Origin: Methyloversatilis thermotolerans
GTDB taxonomy: Bacteria; Pseudomonadota; Gammaproteobacteria; Burkholderiales; Rhodocyclaceae
Reading direction: 5' to 3'
Assembly: GCF_000372885.1 (NCBI RefSeq)
Contig: NZ_KB889967.1
Coordinates: 1,980,655-2,044,654, forward strand
DNA length: 64,000 bases
Shown: positions 34,207-42,876 of the stretch, one piece after another
Numbering within the stretch: the first letter of the stretch is position 1
Layout of the letters: each line of letters starts with the position of its first letter
Notes under the pieces: generated by a model
Told to the model about the DNA's origin: nothing
What the model saw: only the letters and a program-made list of their open reading frames with translations
Database searches by the model: none
Made by a program: the position numbers and the translations under genes

Positions 34207-34281
34207 GGTGAGTGCTCTCCCTGTACCGTCCCGCAGATCGCGGAACCTGCCAGTCATTCGATCATCCTCGGCCTCCACCGG

Positions 34282-34332
34282 ACTATCCGGAATCGGAAAA
34301 CCCGCCGCAGCGCACTATCCGGAATCGGAAAA
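34282..34332. promoter_or_regulatory. Two direct repeats, likely AraC-regulator operator
   Basis: ACTATCCGGAATCGGAAAA occurs twice, at 34282-34300 and 34314-34332, as exact 19-base direct repeats. The repeat distance is 32 bases, about three helical turns. They lie between the divergent ethanolamine permease and AraC-family genes. Direct repeats on one face of the helix are the usual binding layout for AraC-type activators. Confidence 0.75.
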
Positions 34333-34424
34333 TCGATCCGGAGCGGCCTGGCACGGCGGATGCTAAGTGCCTGCAATCACGGTACATTCCTGTTCGCGCG
34401 AGCGACAGGAGGAGAAGGACCATA

Positions 34425-35441
34425 ATGGGACAAGACTTCGCGCCAGCCACGTCCGGTGATCATGCTCGCAGAAGCGGACCGGACGCCGGTATCCGCGTCT
34501 GCCGCAGCGACGATGTCGCCGAACACGCGGACAACATTTCGCGCTGGCATCAGGAATACGAGCAATTGTCGGGGGGGGTGTTCGCCGGCTGCATACGGGA
34601 AATGCTGAGCGAAGAAGGTCCGCGGCTGCAGGTGTTCCACGAATACACCGAACAGGAAACAAGCCAGCAGTGCGGCCCCTGGTCCGGATCGGTCTGGATG
34701 GGGCTGCCCGATCTTTCGCGCACCGGCGAAGTGCGCTTCTGCGGTCGACCGCACAACGATGGTGTGCATCTGATGATGGCGCGCGCGAGCAGCGGCTTCA
34801 CGCTGCGCACGCCGCGCGACTTCGGCATCTATGGCATCGTCGCGGACGAAGGCTGGCTGGCCTCGCGACTGGACGGGCGTCACGGCCGGCGACTGGAGCA
34901 GTTGCTGACCCACGGTTCGGTCGCCAGCCGCGCACTCAGCCCCGCCCGGCACAGTGAATTGTGCTTCCTGATCGAGGGGCTGCTCGATCCCGCCGGCGTC
35001 CGCAGCGAGACCGGCGATCTGTGCACCGAGCTCGTAGACCTCCTGCTGGACAGTCTGGGCGATCAACCCCAGCCCTCTGCGCGCACCGTGCTCGAGCAAC
35101 GGCGTTTCGACGTCGTGATGCAGGCGCGCCGGCTGGCGCTGCATCCGGATATCGCAGTGGATGGCGTGGATCAGTTGTGCGAACGCCTGCACGTCACGCG
35201 CCGAACGCTGCAGAACCACTTCAACAGCGTGGTGGGCATGTCGCCCAAGGACTACCTGAAGCGCGTCCGCCTGAATGCGGTCCGGCGCGAGCTGCAGCAT
35301 GGCTGCGATCCGGCCCGCTGCGTGCACGACATCGCCATGCACTGGGGCTTCTGGCACCTGGGACACTTCTCGCATGACTACCGCGAACTGTTCGGCGAAT
35401 TGCCCTCGCAGACACTGAAGCGATCGCTCGCGGGCGTTTGA
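34425..35441 (+). CDS. AraC-family transcriptional regulator (EutR-like)
   Basis: The 338-residue protein has an N-terminal sensing domain (about 20-230) and a C-terminal AraC DNA-binding domain with two helix-turn-helices (about 235-335: VDQLCERLHVTRRTLQNHFNSVVGMSPKDYLKRVRLNAVRREL, then VHDIAMHWGFWHLGHFSHDYRELFGELPS). The FWHLGHF phrase is typical of EutR-like members. The start at 34425 has a strong ribosome site (AGGAGGAGAAGG). By position it should activate the divergent ethanolamine operon. Confidence 0.87.
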   Translation: MGQDFAPATSGDHARRSGPDAGIRVCRSDDVAEHADNISRWHQEYEQLSGGVFAGCIREMLSEEGPRLQVFHEYTEQETSQQCGPWSGSVWMGLPDLSRTGEVRFCGRPHNDGVHLMMARASSGFTLRTPRDFGIYGIVADEGWLASRLDGRHGRRLEQLLTHGSVASRALSPARHSELCFLIEGLLDPAGVRSETGDLCTELVDLLLDSLGDQPQPSARTVLEQRRFDVVMQARRLALHPDIAVDGVDQLCERLHVTRRTLQNHFNSVVGMSPKDYLKRVRLNAVRRELQHGCDPARCVHDIAMHWGFWHLGHFSHDYRELFGELPSQTLKRSLAGV

Positions 35442-35528
35442 AGGGACCGGGGCCCAAGGAAGGGCTAGGGTCAGGGGGGAACAGTGCCATTCTCGTGAGG
35501 GTCCTCGCAGCGTTCGGCGTGCCCCTGT

Positions 35529-36086
35529 CAGTGCGTGGCTGCGCCTCAAACCACGCCGCGTCATCGAGGAGCTTTTGTTCGTGGCTGCGCCACGAACACC
35601 GCCCCGGAACTCATCAAGGGCTTTTGTTCGTGGCTGTGCCACGAACACCGCCCCGGTACTCCTCAAGGGCTTTTGTTCGTGGCTGCGCCACGAACGCCGC
35701 CCCGGAAATCCTCAAGGGCTTTTGTTCGTGGCTGCGCCACGAACGCCGCCCCGGTACTCCTCAAGGGCTTTTGTTCGTGGCTGCGCCACGAACGCCGCCC
35801 CGGTACTCCCCAAGGGCTTTTGTTCGTGGCTGCGCCACGAACGCCGCCCCGGTACTCCCCAAGGGCTTTTGTTCGTGGCTGCGCCACGAACGCCGCCCCG
35901 GAACTCATCAAGGGCTTTTGTTCGTGGCTGCGCCACGAACACCGCCCCGGAACTCATCAAGGGCTTTTGTTCGTGGCTGCGCCACGAACACCGCCCCGGA
36001 ACTCATCAAGGGCTTTTGTTCGTGGCTGCGCCACGAACGCCGCCCCGGAAATCCATGAGGCTTTTGTTTGTGGCGCAGCCACAAAC
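35529..36086. repeat. 49-bp tandem repeat array of palindromic hairpin units
   Basis: Ten units of exactly 49 bp begin with CTTTTGTTCG at 35572, 35621, 35670, 35719, 35768, 35817, 35866, 35915, 35964 and 36013. A shortened divergent unit starts at 36061 and a degenerate one at about 35529. Every full unit carries a perfect or near-perfect inverted repeat: GTTCGTGGC, loop TGC, GCCACGAAC. Between hairpins is a variable linker of the type CCGCCCCGG(A/T)A..CAAGGG. The linker variants recur in blocks (35817 and 35866 units alike; 35915, 35964 alike), as expected from unit duplication. The final hairpin has compensated changes (GTTTGTGGC/GCCACAAAC), so pairing has been kept. Because 49 is not a multiple of three, all frames stay open; I do not consider the array protein-coding. 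Confidence 0.95.
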
Positions 36087-36115
36087 AAAAAGGGCGACCG
36101 CTCTCGCAGTCGCCC
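36086..36115 (-). terminator. Terminator of the 42-residue peptide gene
   Basis: On the minus strand GGGCGAC, a 10-base loop and GTCGCCC form a 7-bp stem followed by TTTTT. It lies 34 bases after the small gene's stop and borders the hairpin array. Confidence 0.85.
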
Positions 36116-36149
36116 CTCGCACATCTGTCTCACGACAGTTGTGCGGCAA

Positions 36150-36278
36150 TCAGGTCTTCGGCTTTTCCGCCTGGGAGCTCTGGGGTTTGGCGTCGCCGTG
36201 CTTTTCGCCCGGGCAGGCAAGAACAGCGCTGGACGACGCAAACATCGCCAGCCCCAGCAGGATCGCGAGACGTTTCAT
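36150..36278 (-). CDS. Small exported peptide, 42 residues
   Basis: An ATG at 36278 with an excellent ribosome site (AAGGAGGTGATCCGTG) opens a 42-residue protein. It starts MKRLAILLGLAMFASSSAVL, a signal peptide likely cleaved before or at Ala-Cys, and continues ACPGEKHGDAKPQSSQAEKPKT to the stop. The mature part would be only about 21 residues, hydrophilic, with one Cys. The Cys directly after the signal might be a lipid anchor, although the box (VLAC) is only a fair lipobox. Ribosome site, signal peptide and terminator together make it a real gene. I do not recognise a family. Confidence 0.75.
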   Translation of the reverse strand: MKRLAILLGLAMFASSSAVLACPGEKHGDAKPQSSQAEKPKT

Positions 36279-36359
36279 CACGGATCACCTCCTTTCGTGG
36301 TTAGGAAGCCTTTACGATAGGCGCTGTCACTGACCGAATCAAGCGAGGATTGTCGCCAG

Positions 36360-37142
36360 ATGCTGCATTGGTTGCGGCGCACTTTCGCGCCGACCGGACC
36401 CGATCTGCCCGATGTGCCGGCGGACCAGTGGATCCGCGTCGAGGCACGCCTGCCCTATCTCGATTTCCTCGCGCCCGAGGATCGCCCCGCCTTGCGCGAG
36501 CTGGCGCGAACCTTCATCGCGACCAAGCAGTTCCATGGCGCGCATGAACTCCAGCTCGACGACGACATGCTGCTGGAAATCGCGCTTCAGGCCTGCCTGC
36601 CGGTGCTCAAGCTCGGGCTGGACTGGTACGACGACTGGGTGGGCATCGTCATCTACCCGGGCGACTTCATCGTGCCGCGCCAGATCACCGACGAGGCGGG
36701 CGTGGTGCACGAATACGACGACACGCTGGTGGGTGAGGCATGGGCCGGCGGGCCGGTGCTGCTGTCCTGGCAGCCGGATCAGCTTGCGGCCGAAGGCATC
36801 AATGTCGTCATCCACGAATTCGCACACAAGCTGGACATGCGCAACGGTGAGGCCGATGGCCTGCCGCCGCTGCACGAGGGCATGAGCGTCGAGCGCTGGG
36901 CCAAGGTGTGGTCGGATGCCTATGCCCGCTTCTGCGCCGACGTAGACGCCGGCATCGATACCGGCATTGACGACTACGCCGCGGAAAACCCCGCCGAATT
37001 CTTCGCGGTCATGTCGGAATGCTTCTTCGAGATTCCCGATCTGATCGAGCAGACCTGGCCCGATCTCTACCGGCAGTTGTCGCTGTTCTATCGGCTGGAT
37101 CCTGCGCCACGCGCGCGGGCACTATATCCGCCCGCAGCATGA
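36360..37142 (+). CDS. mtfA: Zinc-dependent peptidase of the MtfA family (M90)
   Basis: The 260-residue cytoplasmic protein has the zinc motif HEFAHKLD near residue 151 and the family pattern LPYLDFLAPEDRPALRELARTFIATKQFHGAHELQLDDDMLLEIALQACLPVLKLGLDWYDDW. A downstream Glu-rich segment (NPAEFFAVMSECFFEIPDLIEQTWPDLYRQLSLFYRLDP) completes the fold. In E. coli MtfA inactivates the glucose regulator Mlc, but in other bacteria the target is unknown. It overlaps the next gene by 4 bp. Confidence 0.92.
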   Translation: MLHWLRRTFAPTGPDLPDVPADQWIRVEARLPYLDFLAPEDRPALRELARTFIATKQFHGAHELQLDDDMLLEIALQACLPVLKLGLDWYDDWVGIVIYPGDFIVPRQITDEAGVVHEYDDTLVGEAWAGGPVLLSWQPDQLAAEGINVVIHEFAHKLDMRNGEADGLPPLHEGMSVERWAKVWSDAYARFCADVDAGIDTGIDDYAAENPAEFFAVMSECFFEIPDLIEQTWPDLYRQLSLFYRLDPAPRARALYPPAA

Positions 37143-40300: not shown

Positions 40301-41119
40301 TTAAACGCGGTTCATGCGGCGACGGGCCACGAAGCCCACCATGCCGAGGCCGGCCAGGAACATCGCGTACTCGGAGGGTTCAGGAACCGGCACTACCGCA
40401 AACCCGGCCAGGTAGGCATCCTGGAAGATGCGCCCTCCCTCGGAGGAGGAGGCGCCCTGGACAATACGGACTACATCATCGCGCAGTTCATAGCTGTAAC
40501 CGCTGGCGGAAACGCGGAGGAAGTAGATGCCGCTGTTCGGATTGCCCTCACCCAGGCTGACGTCCGTCCGGATCGCGATCTTGTCCGCATCGAAGTAAGC
40601 TCCATTGGCTGCGTCCGCAGCAACGTAGGTCGCCACGTAATCGGAACGCGACGGATCCCTCAAGCGATAACCAAGCGCCGCACCGTCGTAAATTCCTGCC
40701 GCGCGCGTCCAGGCAGCGGAAACCGTTTCGAAGTCCGAAAAACCGGAACGGACAATCGAGTTGATCTCGGTAATGCCCGTCGTGTTATCTGTCAGCTGGA
40801 AATAGGATCCGAAAATCAGGGAATCCGTGCTCGCATCGCTCCAGACAGAATCAATGAACGTACCCACCGTATAGGTACCCAGCAAGGTCGTCCGGGATCT
40901 GTCATAAACATCGAAGACAACAGCAGAAGTTCGAGTTTCAAGCAGCGTCCATTGATCAGAAACACCATCAATATAAAATGGATCGGTTGCGATATTGGTG
41001 GTCGACCCCGGAGTACGGGCGCCGTTGTTCACCACATCAACAAAACCTCCAGCCTGAGCAGCGCCAAAAGCGGTGGAAAAGGCTACCCCGAAAAGTGCAT
41101 TAAGAAAAAGACCGCGCAT
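40301..41119 (-). CDS. PEP-CTERM sorting domain protein, paralogue 3 of 3
   Basis: The 272-residue exported protein has a signal peptide (MRGLFLNALFGVAFSTAFG, cleaved near AQAGG), a beta-rich body and a C-terminal VPEPSEYAMFLAGLGMVGFVARRR sorting tail. It shares with the next two genes the segments DSLIFGSYFQL, IVRSGFSDFETVSAAWTR and RTDVSLGEGNPNSGIYFLRV. An ATG at 41128 three codons upstream is possible. Exosortase systems cut this tail and place the protein on the surface or in exopolysaccharide. It is last in the operon, 106 bp after paralogue 2. Confidence 0.9.
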   Translation of the reverse strand: MRGLFLNALFGVAFSTAFGAAQAGGFVDVVNNGARTPGSTTNIATDPFYIDGVSDQWTLLETRTSAVVFDVYDRSRTTLLGTYTVGTFIDSVWSDASTDSLIFGSYFQLTDNTTGITEINSIVRSGFSDFETVSAAWTRAAGIYDGAALGYRLRDPSRSDYVATYVAADAANGAYFDADKIAIRTDVSLGEGNPNSGIYFLRVSASGYSYELRDDVVRIVQGASSSEGGRIFQDAYLAGFAVVPVPEPSEYAMFLAGLGMVGFVARRRMNRV

Positions 41120-41225
41120 AATCTCCATACCTGACAATTTATTATTCAAGATCACGGACAAATATCGGACGCAAGATCCGAATGCGTCAGCCGACGGTGA
41201 CCGCGCCGGCTCGACGCGATAAAAC

Positions 41226-41975
41226 TCAGGACCGGCGGCGCTTGGCCATAAATCCCGTCAGCGCGAGGCCGGAGAGCAGCAGCGCATATGCAGAGGGCTC
41301 CGGAACAGGAGCCGTCACCGGCGCAAAACCTGCAAACGAAATATTGACGATATCTCCTTCGTCCTCCTCTCCGCCCTGACGCAGCCGCACCGCGCCATCG
41401 AGCAACTTGTAGGAAGTTGCGTCGGTCTTGATCAGATAAAGCGCGGTCTGAGGGTTGCCTTCCGCCCAGTTGATGTCGGAACGGAACCCGACCGAATCGA
41501 GATCCAGGGTGTCCTCTTCGCCGAAACCGGCCGAAGTGCGAGCTGCAGCATAGATCCACAGGTCATAGTCCGTGACGAACGCCCACGCGACAGACACATC
41601 CGTAACACCAGCATAACCGGTGCGGAACAGATCATTGATCTCGAAGTAGTCGTCCTCGTCTTCCGGTGTGCTCAGAACGAGACGGGAGCCGAAATACAGG
41701 GACCCGGTCGAATCCGAGAAGACGTAATCAAAGAAGTTTCCTACCGTCTCGCCCTCGTGCTCGAACTCAGTAACGCGTTGATCGAGCACCGTAAGGAAGC
41801 CGGGGAGTGCATACGAATTTGCACCATTGCTCGGACCTGAATCGATCTGAAAAGACTCAAAATCCTCGATACGAAGATTTCCACTCGTGGGCAGAGACGC
41901 GAACTCACCAGCCACAGCGTGCGCAACCGAGCTGAGCGCGATACTTGCCCCAAAAACCAGATTTCGAATATTCAT
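41226..41975 (-). CDS. PEP-CTERM sorting domain protein, paralogue 2 of 3
   Basis: The 249-residue protein has a signal peptide (MNIRNLVFGASIALSSVAHA), begins mature sequence as GEFASLPTSGN, and ends VPEPSAYALLLSGLALTGFMAKRRRS. The shared core is visible: FFDYVFSDSTGSLYFGSRL, INDLFRTGYAGVTDVSVAWAF, FRSDINWAEGNPQTALYLIKTDATSYKLLDGAVRLRQGGEE. A GTG two codons before the ATG has a closer ribosome site (AGGAGAG). It is acidic, and has no catalytic motif I recognise. Confidence 0.9.
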   Translation of the reverse strand: MNIRNLVFGASIALSSVAHAVAGEFASLPTSGNLRIEDFESFQIDSGPSNGANSYALPGFLTVLDQRVTEFEHEGETVGNFFDYVFSDSTGSLYFGSRLVLSTPEDEDDYFEINDLFRTGYAGVTDVSVAWAFVTDYDLWIYAAARTSAGFGEEDTLDLDSVGFRSDINWAEGNPQTALYLIKTDATSYKLLDGAVRLRQGGEEDEGDIVNISFAGFAPVTAPVPEPSAYALLLSGLALTGFMAKRRRS

Positions 41976-42006
41976 ATGCACAGCACTCTCCTTTTTGATC
42001 AGAAAT

Positions 42007-42876
42007 TCACTTGCGACGTCGCGCAACTACACCGGTAAGCGCCAGACCTGCAAGAAGCATCGCGTAAGTCTCAGGTTCCGGAACAGCGACAACAGGATTG
42101 GGCGCGAATGCCGCGAAGCTACGGGTCAATACCGGCTGTCCCTCTTCACCGGCCTGGCGTATCCACGCTGCACCATCGACAAGCGAGTACCCTTGCTCTT
42201 CAGTCGCATTTGTACGAATGAGATACAAACCGCTGAATGGATTACGCTCCGCCTGATTCACGTCCGACCTGAGGTCAACGACATCGTTGTCATATGCCTC
42301 GCTGCCGGGCAAAGGATCCGCCCCCCCCTTGAGACCAACCGACGAACGTGCTGCGGAATACAAGCGAAGATCGTTGCCGGAAGTAGAAGAATAGACTCGA
42401 GTCCAGGCAACTTCGGTTTCGTAGTCAGCAAAACCACTGCGGAATATATCGTTCGCCTCAGAGAGGTCGATCATCTGAAGACGCGAGCCGAAAACCAGCG
42501 TATCAGTGGTGTTATCCAGAAAAACATAATCAAAGAAAACACCCGAAAATCCGCCCACGACGGAGTTGTCAGAGAACGATGTCTGCCTTGATTCGAGCAA
42601 CGTAAACTGCGTCGGGAAGGCATGGACATTGACGGTTCTCTGAGAGGCTGTTGCGCCGACGCCCACGGTGACTGTCGTCGTACCGGTTACGGCACCGGGA
42701 GTGATATAGAACGGATCGACGTTGACGTTGTTGACACCGTTGCAGCGGACGCTATTTAGGCAAGGCGCAGCAGTTCCCAGTTCACCATTGGGAAGAGAGA
42801 CGAAGCCACCCGCGTATGCGCTCACCGACATCATGCTTGCACACGCGAAAAAAAACGTACGAGAATGATCGAGCAT
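42007..42876 (-). CDS. PEP-CTERM sorting domain protein, paralogue 1 of 3
   Basis: The 289-residue protein starts at an ATG with an excellent ribosome site (GGAGGGTTTCT). It has a signal peptide (MLDHSRTFFFACASMMSVSAYA) and the mature start GGFVSLPNGELG, and it ends VPEPETYAMLLAGLALTGVVARRRK. Core segments shared with its two neighbours are FFDYVFLDNTTDTLVFGSRLQM, ANDIFRSGFADYETEVAWTR, DLRSDVNQAERNPFSGLYLIRTNAT and YSLVDGAAWIRQAGEE. It also has a Cys pair (PCLNSVRC) that the others lack. It lies 43 bp after the TonB receptor gene. Confidence 0.9.
   Translation of the reverse strand: MLDHSRTFFFACASMMSVSAYAGGFVSLPNGELGTAAPCLNSVRCNGVNNVNVDPFYITPGAVTGTTTVTVGVGATASQRTVNVHAFPTQFTLLESRQTSFSDNSVVGGFSGVFFDYVFLDNTTDTLVFGSRLQMIDLSEANDIFRSGFADYETEVAWTRVYSSTSGNDLRLYSAARSSVGLKGGADPLPGSEAYDNDVVDLRSDVNQAERNPFSGLYLIRTNATEEQGYSLVDGAAWIRQAGEEGQPVLTRSFAAFAPNPVVAVPEPETYAMLLAGLALTGVVARRRK

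Follow-up and report, generated by a model that had tools for sequence, protein, structure and literature searches.

What kind of element is a run of ten hairpins with one and the same stem, placed between two convergent genes, and how did it arise? The question is raised by a locus of Methyloversatilis thermotolerans that was analysed within a window of 64 kb (the whole stretch of DNA studied, 64,000 nucleotides) and compared with other genomes of the genus, the family and the order. The reading preferred here, to which a probability of roughly 0.7 is given, is that the array is a young, species-restricted hairpin minisatellite, born in place, not mobile and most likely near neutral.

Architecture of the array and its neighbours

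The features of the locus, in window coordinates, are the following.
34212..35441, + strand: AraC-family regulator gene, EutR-like, its 3' end facing the array (start of the longest ORF)
35531..35569, + strand: decayed 5' unit, stem partly kept (alignment to the unit)
35572..36060, + strand: tandem array, 10 x 49 bp, the last unit 48 bp (Tandem Repeats Finder and unit alignment)
35577..35597, no strand given: hairpin of unit 1
35626, 35675, 35724, 35773, 35822, 35871, 35920, 35969 and 36018: hairpin starts of units 2-10
36062..36090, - strand: terminal hairpin TTTTGTTTGTGGC-GCA-GCCACAAACAAAA (+ strand letters), with 13-bp arms
36089..36118, - strand: intrinsic-terminator-like hairpin of the small-peptide gene (terminator scan and position)
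36150..36278, - strand: gene of a 42-aa peptide, the convergent neighbour
36360..37142, + strand: M90 peptidase gene, the synteny anchor (Pfam PF06167, 1.5e-85)

Tandem Repeats Finder delimits the repeat at 35561-36086 (period 49, 10.7 copies, 94% matches) with a score of 850, while the next best of its six rows in the window scores 86. The exact 49-bp spacing of the original prediction holds for the unit starts, which run from 35572 and 35621 to 36013 in nine steps of 49, but not for the length of unit 10. Each unit contains a perfect 9-bp stem, GTTCGTGGC/GCCACGAAC, closed by a 3-base loop; the stem, which starts with GTTC and is directly preceded by CTTTT, is identical in all ten units, so that the words "near-perfect" in the earlier description are superfluous. 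The loop is TGC in nine units and TGT in unit 2, and the orientation is common to all of them. The 64-kb window has 14 perfect 9-bp stems that close on a 3-base loop, and 11 of these belong to the array locus.

The array was expected to lie between two convergent transcription units, and the annotation agrees. On the + strand, the AraC-family protein matches Pfam HTH_18 (9.4e-24) and the NCBIfam EutR model (E 5.8e-52, 176.9 bits, which is below the equivalog cutoff of 319), and its gene is adjoined by eutB and by an amino-acid-permease-family gene. On the - strand, the small peptide has a signal-like N-terminus, MKRLAILLGLAMFASSSAVLACPGEKHGDAKPQSSQAEKPKT; NCBIfam has no match for it and Pfam none above cutoff; it is 42 aa long and nearly identical in all 13 genus genomes, and is encoded divergently from the M90 peptidase gene, its neighbour in 13/13. 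Another observation from the window concerns two neighbouring ORFs at 40301-42026 (- strand), which carry PEP-CTERM-like C-terminal tails.

The only terminator-like site between 35300 and 36420 belongs to the small-peptide gene, and none was found on the + strand of this interval. Since one site is no more than shuffled sequence yields (mean 1.6), the scan alone is no evidence, and the call is based on position and on recurrence in the genus, a hairpin with an A-tract being found at the same position in the genus sequences compared. A transcript of the peptide gene would meet this terminator before the array; by the order of the elements, the array therefore lies beyond the peptide-gene terminator and directly downstream of the regulator. 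Between the peptide stop codon and the terminator, at 36125-36138, there is also a small inverted repeat, CTGTCTCACGACAG, which occurs once in each of the 13 genus genomes.

Several other identities were considered and set aside. A CRISPR array, already discounted in the original prediction, does not fit, because the supposed spacers are near-identical linkers that differ at few columns instead of unique sequences. Neither strand has a T-run after the stem, which excludes an array of intrinsic terminators. Rfam, at gathering scores, finds only a tRNA (2614-2686) in the window, thus no known structured RNA, and although two of the three + frames are stop-free inside the array, the Pfam hits of three + ORFs are all below cutoffs, which argues against a gene for a repeat protein. 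A role at the replication terminus was rejected on the absence of a dif-like site and of a GC-skew sign change at the array. No dif-like site was found in the window or the genome with the pattern used, a miss that says little; in each of the window's four 16-kb quarters the skew is below zero, and the sampled stretches place its change of sign between 0.97 and 1.18 Mb. The start of the first contig does not mark the origin, because it carries genes that we presume, from their translations, to be tig/clpX/lon-like.

Distribution of the repeat and the same gap in sister species

The original prediction proposed a search of the unit against the host and related genomes, and the outcome is a single locus. 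Across the 4.16 Mb of the host (4 contigs), only the array locus yields matches with at most two mismatches, 11 in all, and the best outside match of a two-unit BLAST query has an E of 0.0078; this weak match (G000:C1:1131949-1131973) lies in a terminator-like GC-rich stem and may be due to chance, and shared ancestry is not claimed for it. A covariance model of the hairpin, run on 13 genomes with 150 candidates scored in each, reaches a best E of 0.12 outside the locus and of 0.17 elsewhere in the host, and among these candidates there are no convincing relatives. With at most one mismatch allowed, the 12 other genus genomes yield no match, and BLAST finds none in 20 relatives.

The wider searches cover 399 genomes of the order and 150 of the family, both drawn from larger groups. 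The exact pattern is absent from the 398 other order genomes, leaving the host as the sole match. With one mismatch allowed, seven family genomes match: besides the host there are six that have one site apiece, which in G487 is free of mismatches. The reversed control pattern matches in four of the same 150; the array is absent from the other 149, which have single sites at most. Across 84,980 species genomes, a collection that possibly leaves out the host's own or near records, the exact stem occurs at 12 scattered single sites, none of them an array. It has no match in viral contigs, and plasmid and phage collections give no BLAST match to the array; a mobile origin was rejected on these grounds. 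A literature search over titles and abstract starts of open-licence PMC papers retrieved no report about this repeat.

Short intergenic hairpins bring to mind REP sequences and their mobilisation by RAYT transposases, and the spread of a REP/BIME cluster by such an enzyme is a rival to be weighed. The host does encode two Y1_Tnp proteins, and REPs occur mostly where neighbouring ORFs are unidirectional or convergent and may form tandem reiterations (PMC3733652). In the description by Nunvar et al. (PMC2817692), REPs are recognised by a GT(A/G)G head, a GC-rich palindrome, abundance and a flanking RAYT, and of these features the array has the palindrome only. No GT(A/G)G head directly precedes it, there is a single locus in place of many dispersed copies, and the ten units share one orientation, all of which speaks against the rival. 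Moreover, the host RAYT (G000:C1:1191398) sits among ~124-bp tandem repeats that bear a different palindrome, GTAGGAGCGAGCCCCGCTCGCGAC, with 61 genome matches at up to three mismatches and none in the window. The second Y1_Tnp gene shows no tandem array and no abundant repeat around it; in the 20 kb around either gene there is no array-like perfect hairpin, and neither neighbourhood resembles the array unit. Thus the RAYT whose presence the original prediction proposed to check does exist, but it belongs with another repeat, and the statement that the array is no scattered REP family is upheld by its single locus, its missing head and its difference from the family around the host's RAYT. Identity with a typical REP already fails, and spread by a RAYT transposase is hardly credible. 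The RAYT locus deserves mention for itself: at about 1190.6-1192.7 kb of the same contig (L094 9095-11218) a RAYT gene, BIME-like ~124-bp tandem repeats and GTAG-type REPs are found together, close to the host's second M90 peptidase gene.

The gap that holds the array can be followed in the four of the 12 other genus genomes (G001, G003, G004 and G010) that have the AraC-family gene at the corresponding position; the array is in none of them, and in the remaining eight the AraC-family protein was not found within the 1.5 kb upstream that was read. With the AraC-family stop codon and the end of the A-tract of the terminator as limits, the gap measures 650 bp in the host, 33 in G004, 79 in G001, 301 in G010 and 438 in G003. 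REP-type palindromes unrelated to the array are found in three of these gaps, one in G001, three in G010 and four in G003, counts obtained with a loose pattern that may miss copies. One of these palindromes, GTGGGAGCGGTCTTCTGACCGCGA, has 154 matches with at most two mismatches in G001, 95 in G010 and 89 in G003, one each in G004 and G005, and none in the host and the other seven genus genomes. On the sequences compared, different species thus have hairpin repeats of unrelated kinds in the same gap. Since REPs favour ORF gaps of this type (PMC3733652), the filling may come from a general preference or tolerance and not from a requirement of this particular gap. Tandem REPs occur elsewhere in the genus too, as in G001:C1:3079732-3080439, where six copies follow each other at 136-137-bp steps.

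Edges, variation and a proposed origin

The two edges of the array differ from its interior. At the 5' side, 35531-35569 aligns to the unit with a score of 32, which was reached by none of 500 mononucleotide shuffles (maximum 26). At the other side, the terminal hairpin has one compensated stem pair, T-A in place of the C-G of the array, and its loop, GCA, is the reverse complement of the array's TGC, i.e. inverted; BLAST with the array unit accordingly matches it on the opposite (-) strand. Its right arm takes in the A-rich tract CAAACAAAAAGGG of the small-peptide terminator, a tract that is complete in this hairpin and in no unit inside the array. An extra-stable C-GCA-G DNA triloop on the - strand was considered, but the energy model gives -9.4 kcal/mol for both strands and does not show it.

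The original prediction spoke of a flanking partial unit whose paired changes preserve the stem. This corresponds to the terminal hairpin, where one compensated pair is indeed present; it is, however, a single pair, and the loop is inverted. As an argument for selection on the stem, the paired change alone does not stand, because one template-switch event can give both arm homogenisation and loop inversion (PMC8604942), and the terminal hairpin bears this very signature.

Within the array, units 1, 8 and 9 are identical, as are 5 and 6, and the linker variants are arranged in blocks, which supports the earlier view that the linkers record recent duplication. The same pattern argues against a false expansion or collapse of the repeat during assembly: six columns, in linker or loop, vary among the units in an ordered way, and the contig that encloses the array is 4.12 Mb long, which makes such an artefact a very remote prospect.

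A course of events can be proposed for the minisatellite. The polymerase would have switched template where the small-peptide terminator has its A-rich tract CAAACAAAAAGGG; copied as the reverse complement, the tract would have become the left arm TTTTGTTTGTGGC of a new hairpin between the two convergent genes. On a single-stranded template this hairpin would then have promoted replication slippage and with it the repeated duplication of a 49-bp segment; the blocks of linker variants and the two sets of identical units are what duplication of units predicts. As the last step comes the terminal hairpin, whose arms match with one pair changed on both sides and whose loop is inverted, presumably by template switching. 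Template switching is reported to create reverse-complement repeats and hairpins and to fix stem pairing (PMC8794818), and yeast data are reported to show that it homogenises arms and inverts spacers (PMC8604942); the arms and the loop of the terminal hairpin fit such a process.

Among the 12 other genus genomes, the tract CAAACAAAAAGGG is found in one (G004, in its 33-bp gap) and a shorter form, AACAAAAAGGG, in four (G004, G006, G008 and G011), while the left arm TTTTGTTTGTGGC, the reverse complement of the right-arm tract, is in none within the 1.5 kb examined. We infer that the tract is ancestral and that the events followed the proposed order, a conclusion drawn from few sequences, given that the full tract is present in only one of the others. 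The lack of the full tract in the units inside the array likewise counts against this origin.

Possible functions and comparison with known systems

The folding of the array raises the question of a function. The RNA of 35529-36120 has fold z-scores of -14.6 (+ strand) and -18.6 (- strand), and none of 100 shuffles folds as well on either strand; pairing between adjacent units, spanning the linker, is also predicted (-19.9 to -24.5 kcal/mol), and in that structure the base at column 27 stays paired whether it is A or G. In units 1-9, to which the variability test was applied (unit 10, at the edge, being left out), 6 of 49 columns vary, in the linker or the loop. The 18 stem columns contain none of the six (hypergeometric P 0.053), nor do the 26 columns obtained by adding the linker stem GCCC/GGGC (P 0.007, for a set chosen after folding). 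That variation avoids paired columns is a hint of constraint on the structure, not a proof; the hint is weak because units copied from one another are not independent and mutation alone can homogenise hairpins.

On this basis, the array might be a selected insulator of 3' ends: transcription of the AraC-family (eut-type) regulator would run on into the hairpins, which would then hold up 3' exonucleases and keep antisense read-through out of the small-peptide gene. Such a role has also been proposed for REPs downstream of genes. Consistent with this are the convergent setting, the lack of a + strand terminator-like site in 35300-36420, the very stable folds of both strands, the avoidance of paired columns and the REP-type hairpins in the same gap of three of the four syntenic sisters; REPs themselves are mainly found downstream of genes and are thought to act as RNA (PMC3733652). 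Conversely, the stems lack a following T-run on both strands, so that the units are no intrinsic terminators; a gap of 33 bp suffices in the sister G004; and the test for constraint is weak and, in part, post hoc. For these reasons a selected insulator is considered unlikely. Still more doubtful is a bolder version, in which a hairpin 3' buffer is required between the eut-type regulator and the small-peptide gene, and template switching and slippage have supplied the host with one of its own making in place of the RAYT-type REPs that its sisters carry; if true, a terminator tail would here have given rise de novo to a structured 3' element. The original prediction also named a transcription barrier and a structured repeat RNA, roles that the array may or may not have. 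The perfect 21-bp palindrome, spaced at a fixed 49 bp and with its stem unchanged in all ten units, could also suggest an array of binding sites for a protein, such as a nucleoid protein, gyrase or a dimeric regulator. This palindrome, however, occurs nowhere else in the host (at most two mismatches) nor in the 12 other genus genomes (at most one), and its confinement to the locus means that there is no regulon or dispersed set of sites of that exactness and makes a dispersed nucleoid-binding role unlikely; furthermore, 49 bp would not correspond to a whole number of helical turns. Protein binding is thus a very improbable explanation.

A nearly neutral minisatellite remains the preferred reading, and two considerations tell against its neutrality: three sisters keep hairpin repeats of another family in the gap, where hairpins could be useful, and the avoidance of paired columns hints in the same direction. 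An effect of the array on the 3' ends of the flanking convergent transcripts is possible; if it is transcribed from the AraC-family gene, it would give a very stable mRNA 3' end, as an incidental effect. Found in one of the 13 genomes of the genus, the array is a clear case of a minisatellite of hairpins for which a terminator tail is a possible source, and the sister species show two other states of the gap, one short and free of the array, the other filled with REP-type repeats. It also carries a caution, namely that a compensated stem pair alone is no proof of selection on RNA structure. If the copy number varies, the array would be a strain-typing marker for the species.

Compared with known systems, the array is closest to minisatellites (VNTRs), defined in PMC2884548 by units of at least 20 bp with at least 90% identity. 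With 49-bp units arranged head to tail in 10.7 copies at 94%, it lies within this definition, and it shares with minisatellites the location at one locus and the block-wise variants that indicate unit duplication. Of the E. coli minisatellites of that paper, a majority corresponds to palindromic-unit elements; differently from those, the palindrome of the array does not belong to a dispersed family of its genome, and the array is known here from one genome. CRISPR arrays have a regular period and palindromic units as well, but there the spacers are unique, whereas here the linkers are near-identical copies. With REP/BIME elements the array has in common the form of short intergenic hairpins between convergent genes, which may be in tandem, and REP-type palindromes even occupy this very gap in three sisters; it differs from them in head, dispersal, linked transposase and single orientation. 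Finally, the hairpins produced by template switching at quasipalindromes resemble the terminal hairpin in what would be a reverse-complement copy of a neighbouring tract, in its homogenised arms and in its inverted loop; here, the putative switch would have been followed by tandem expansion.
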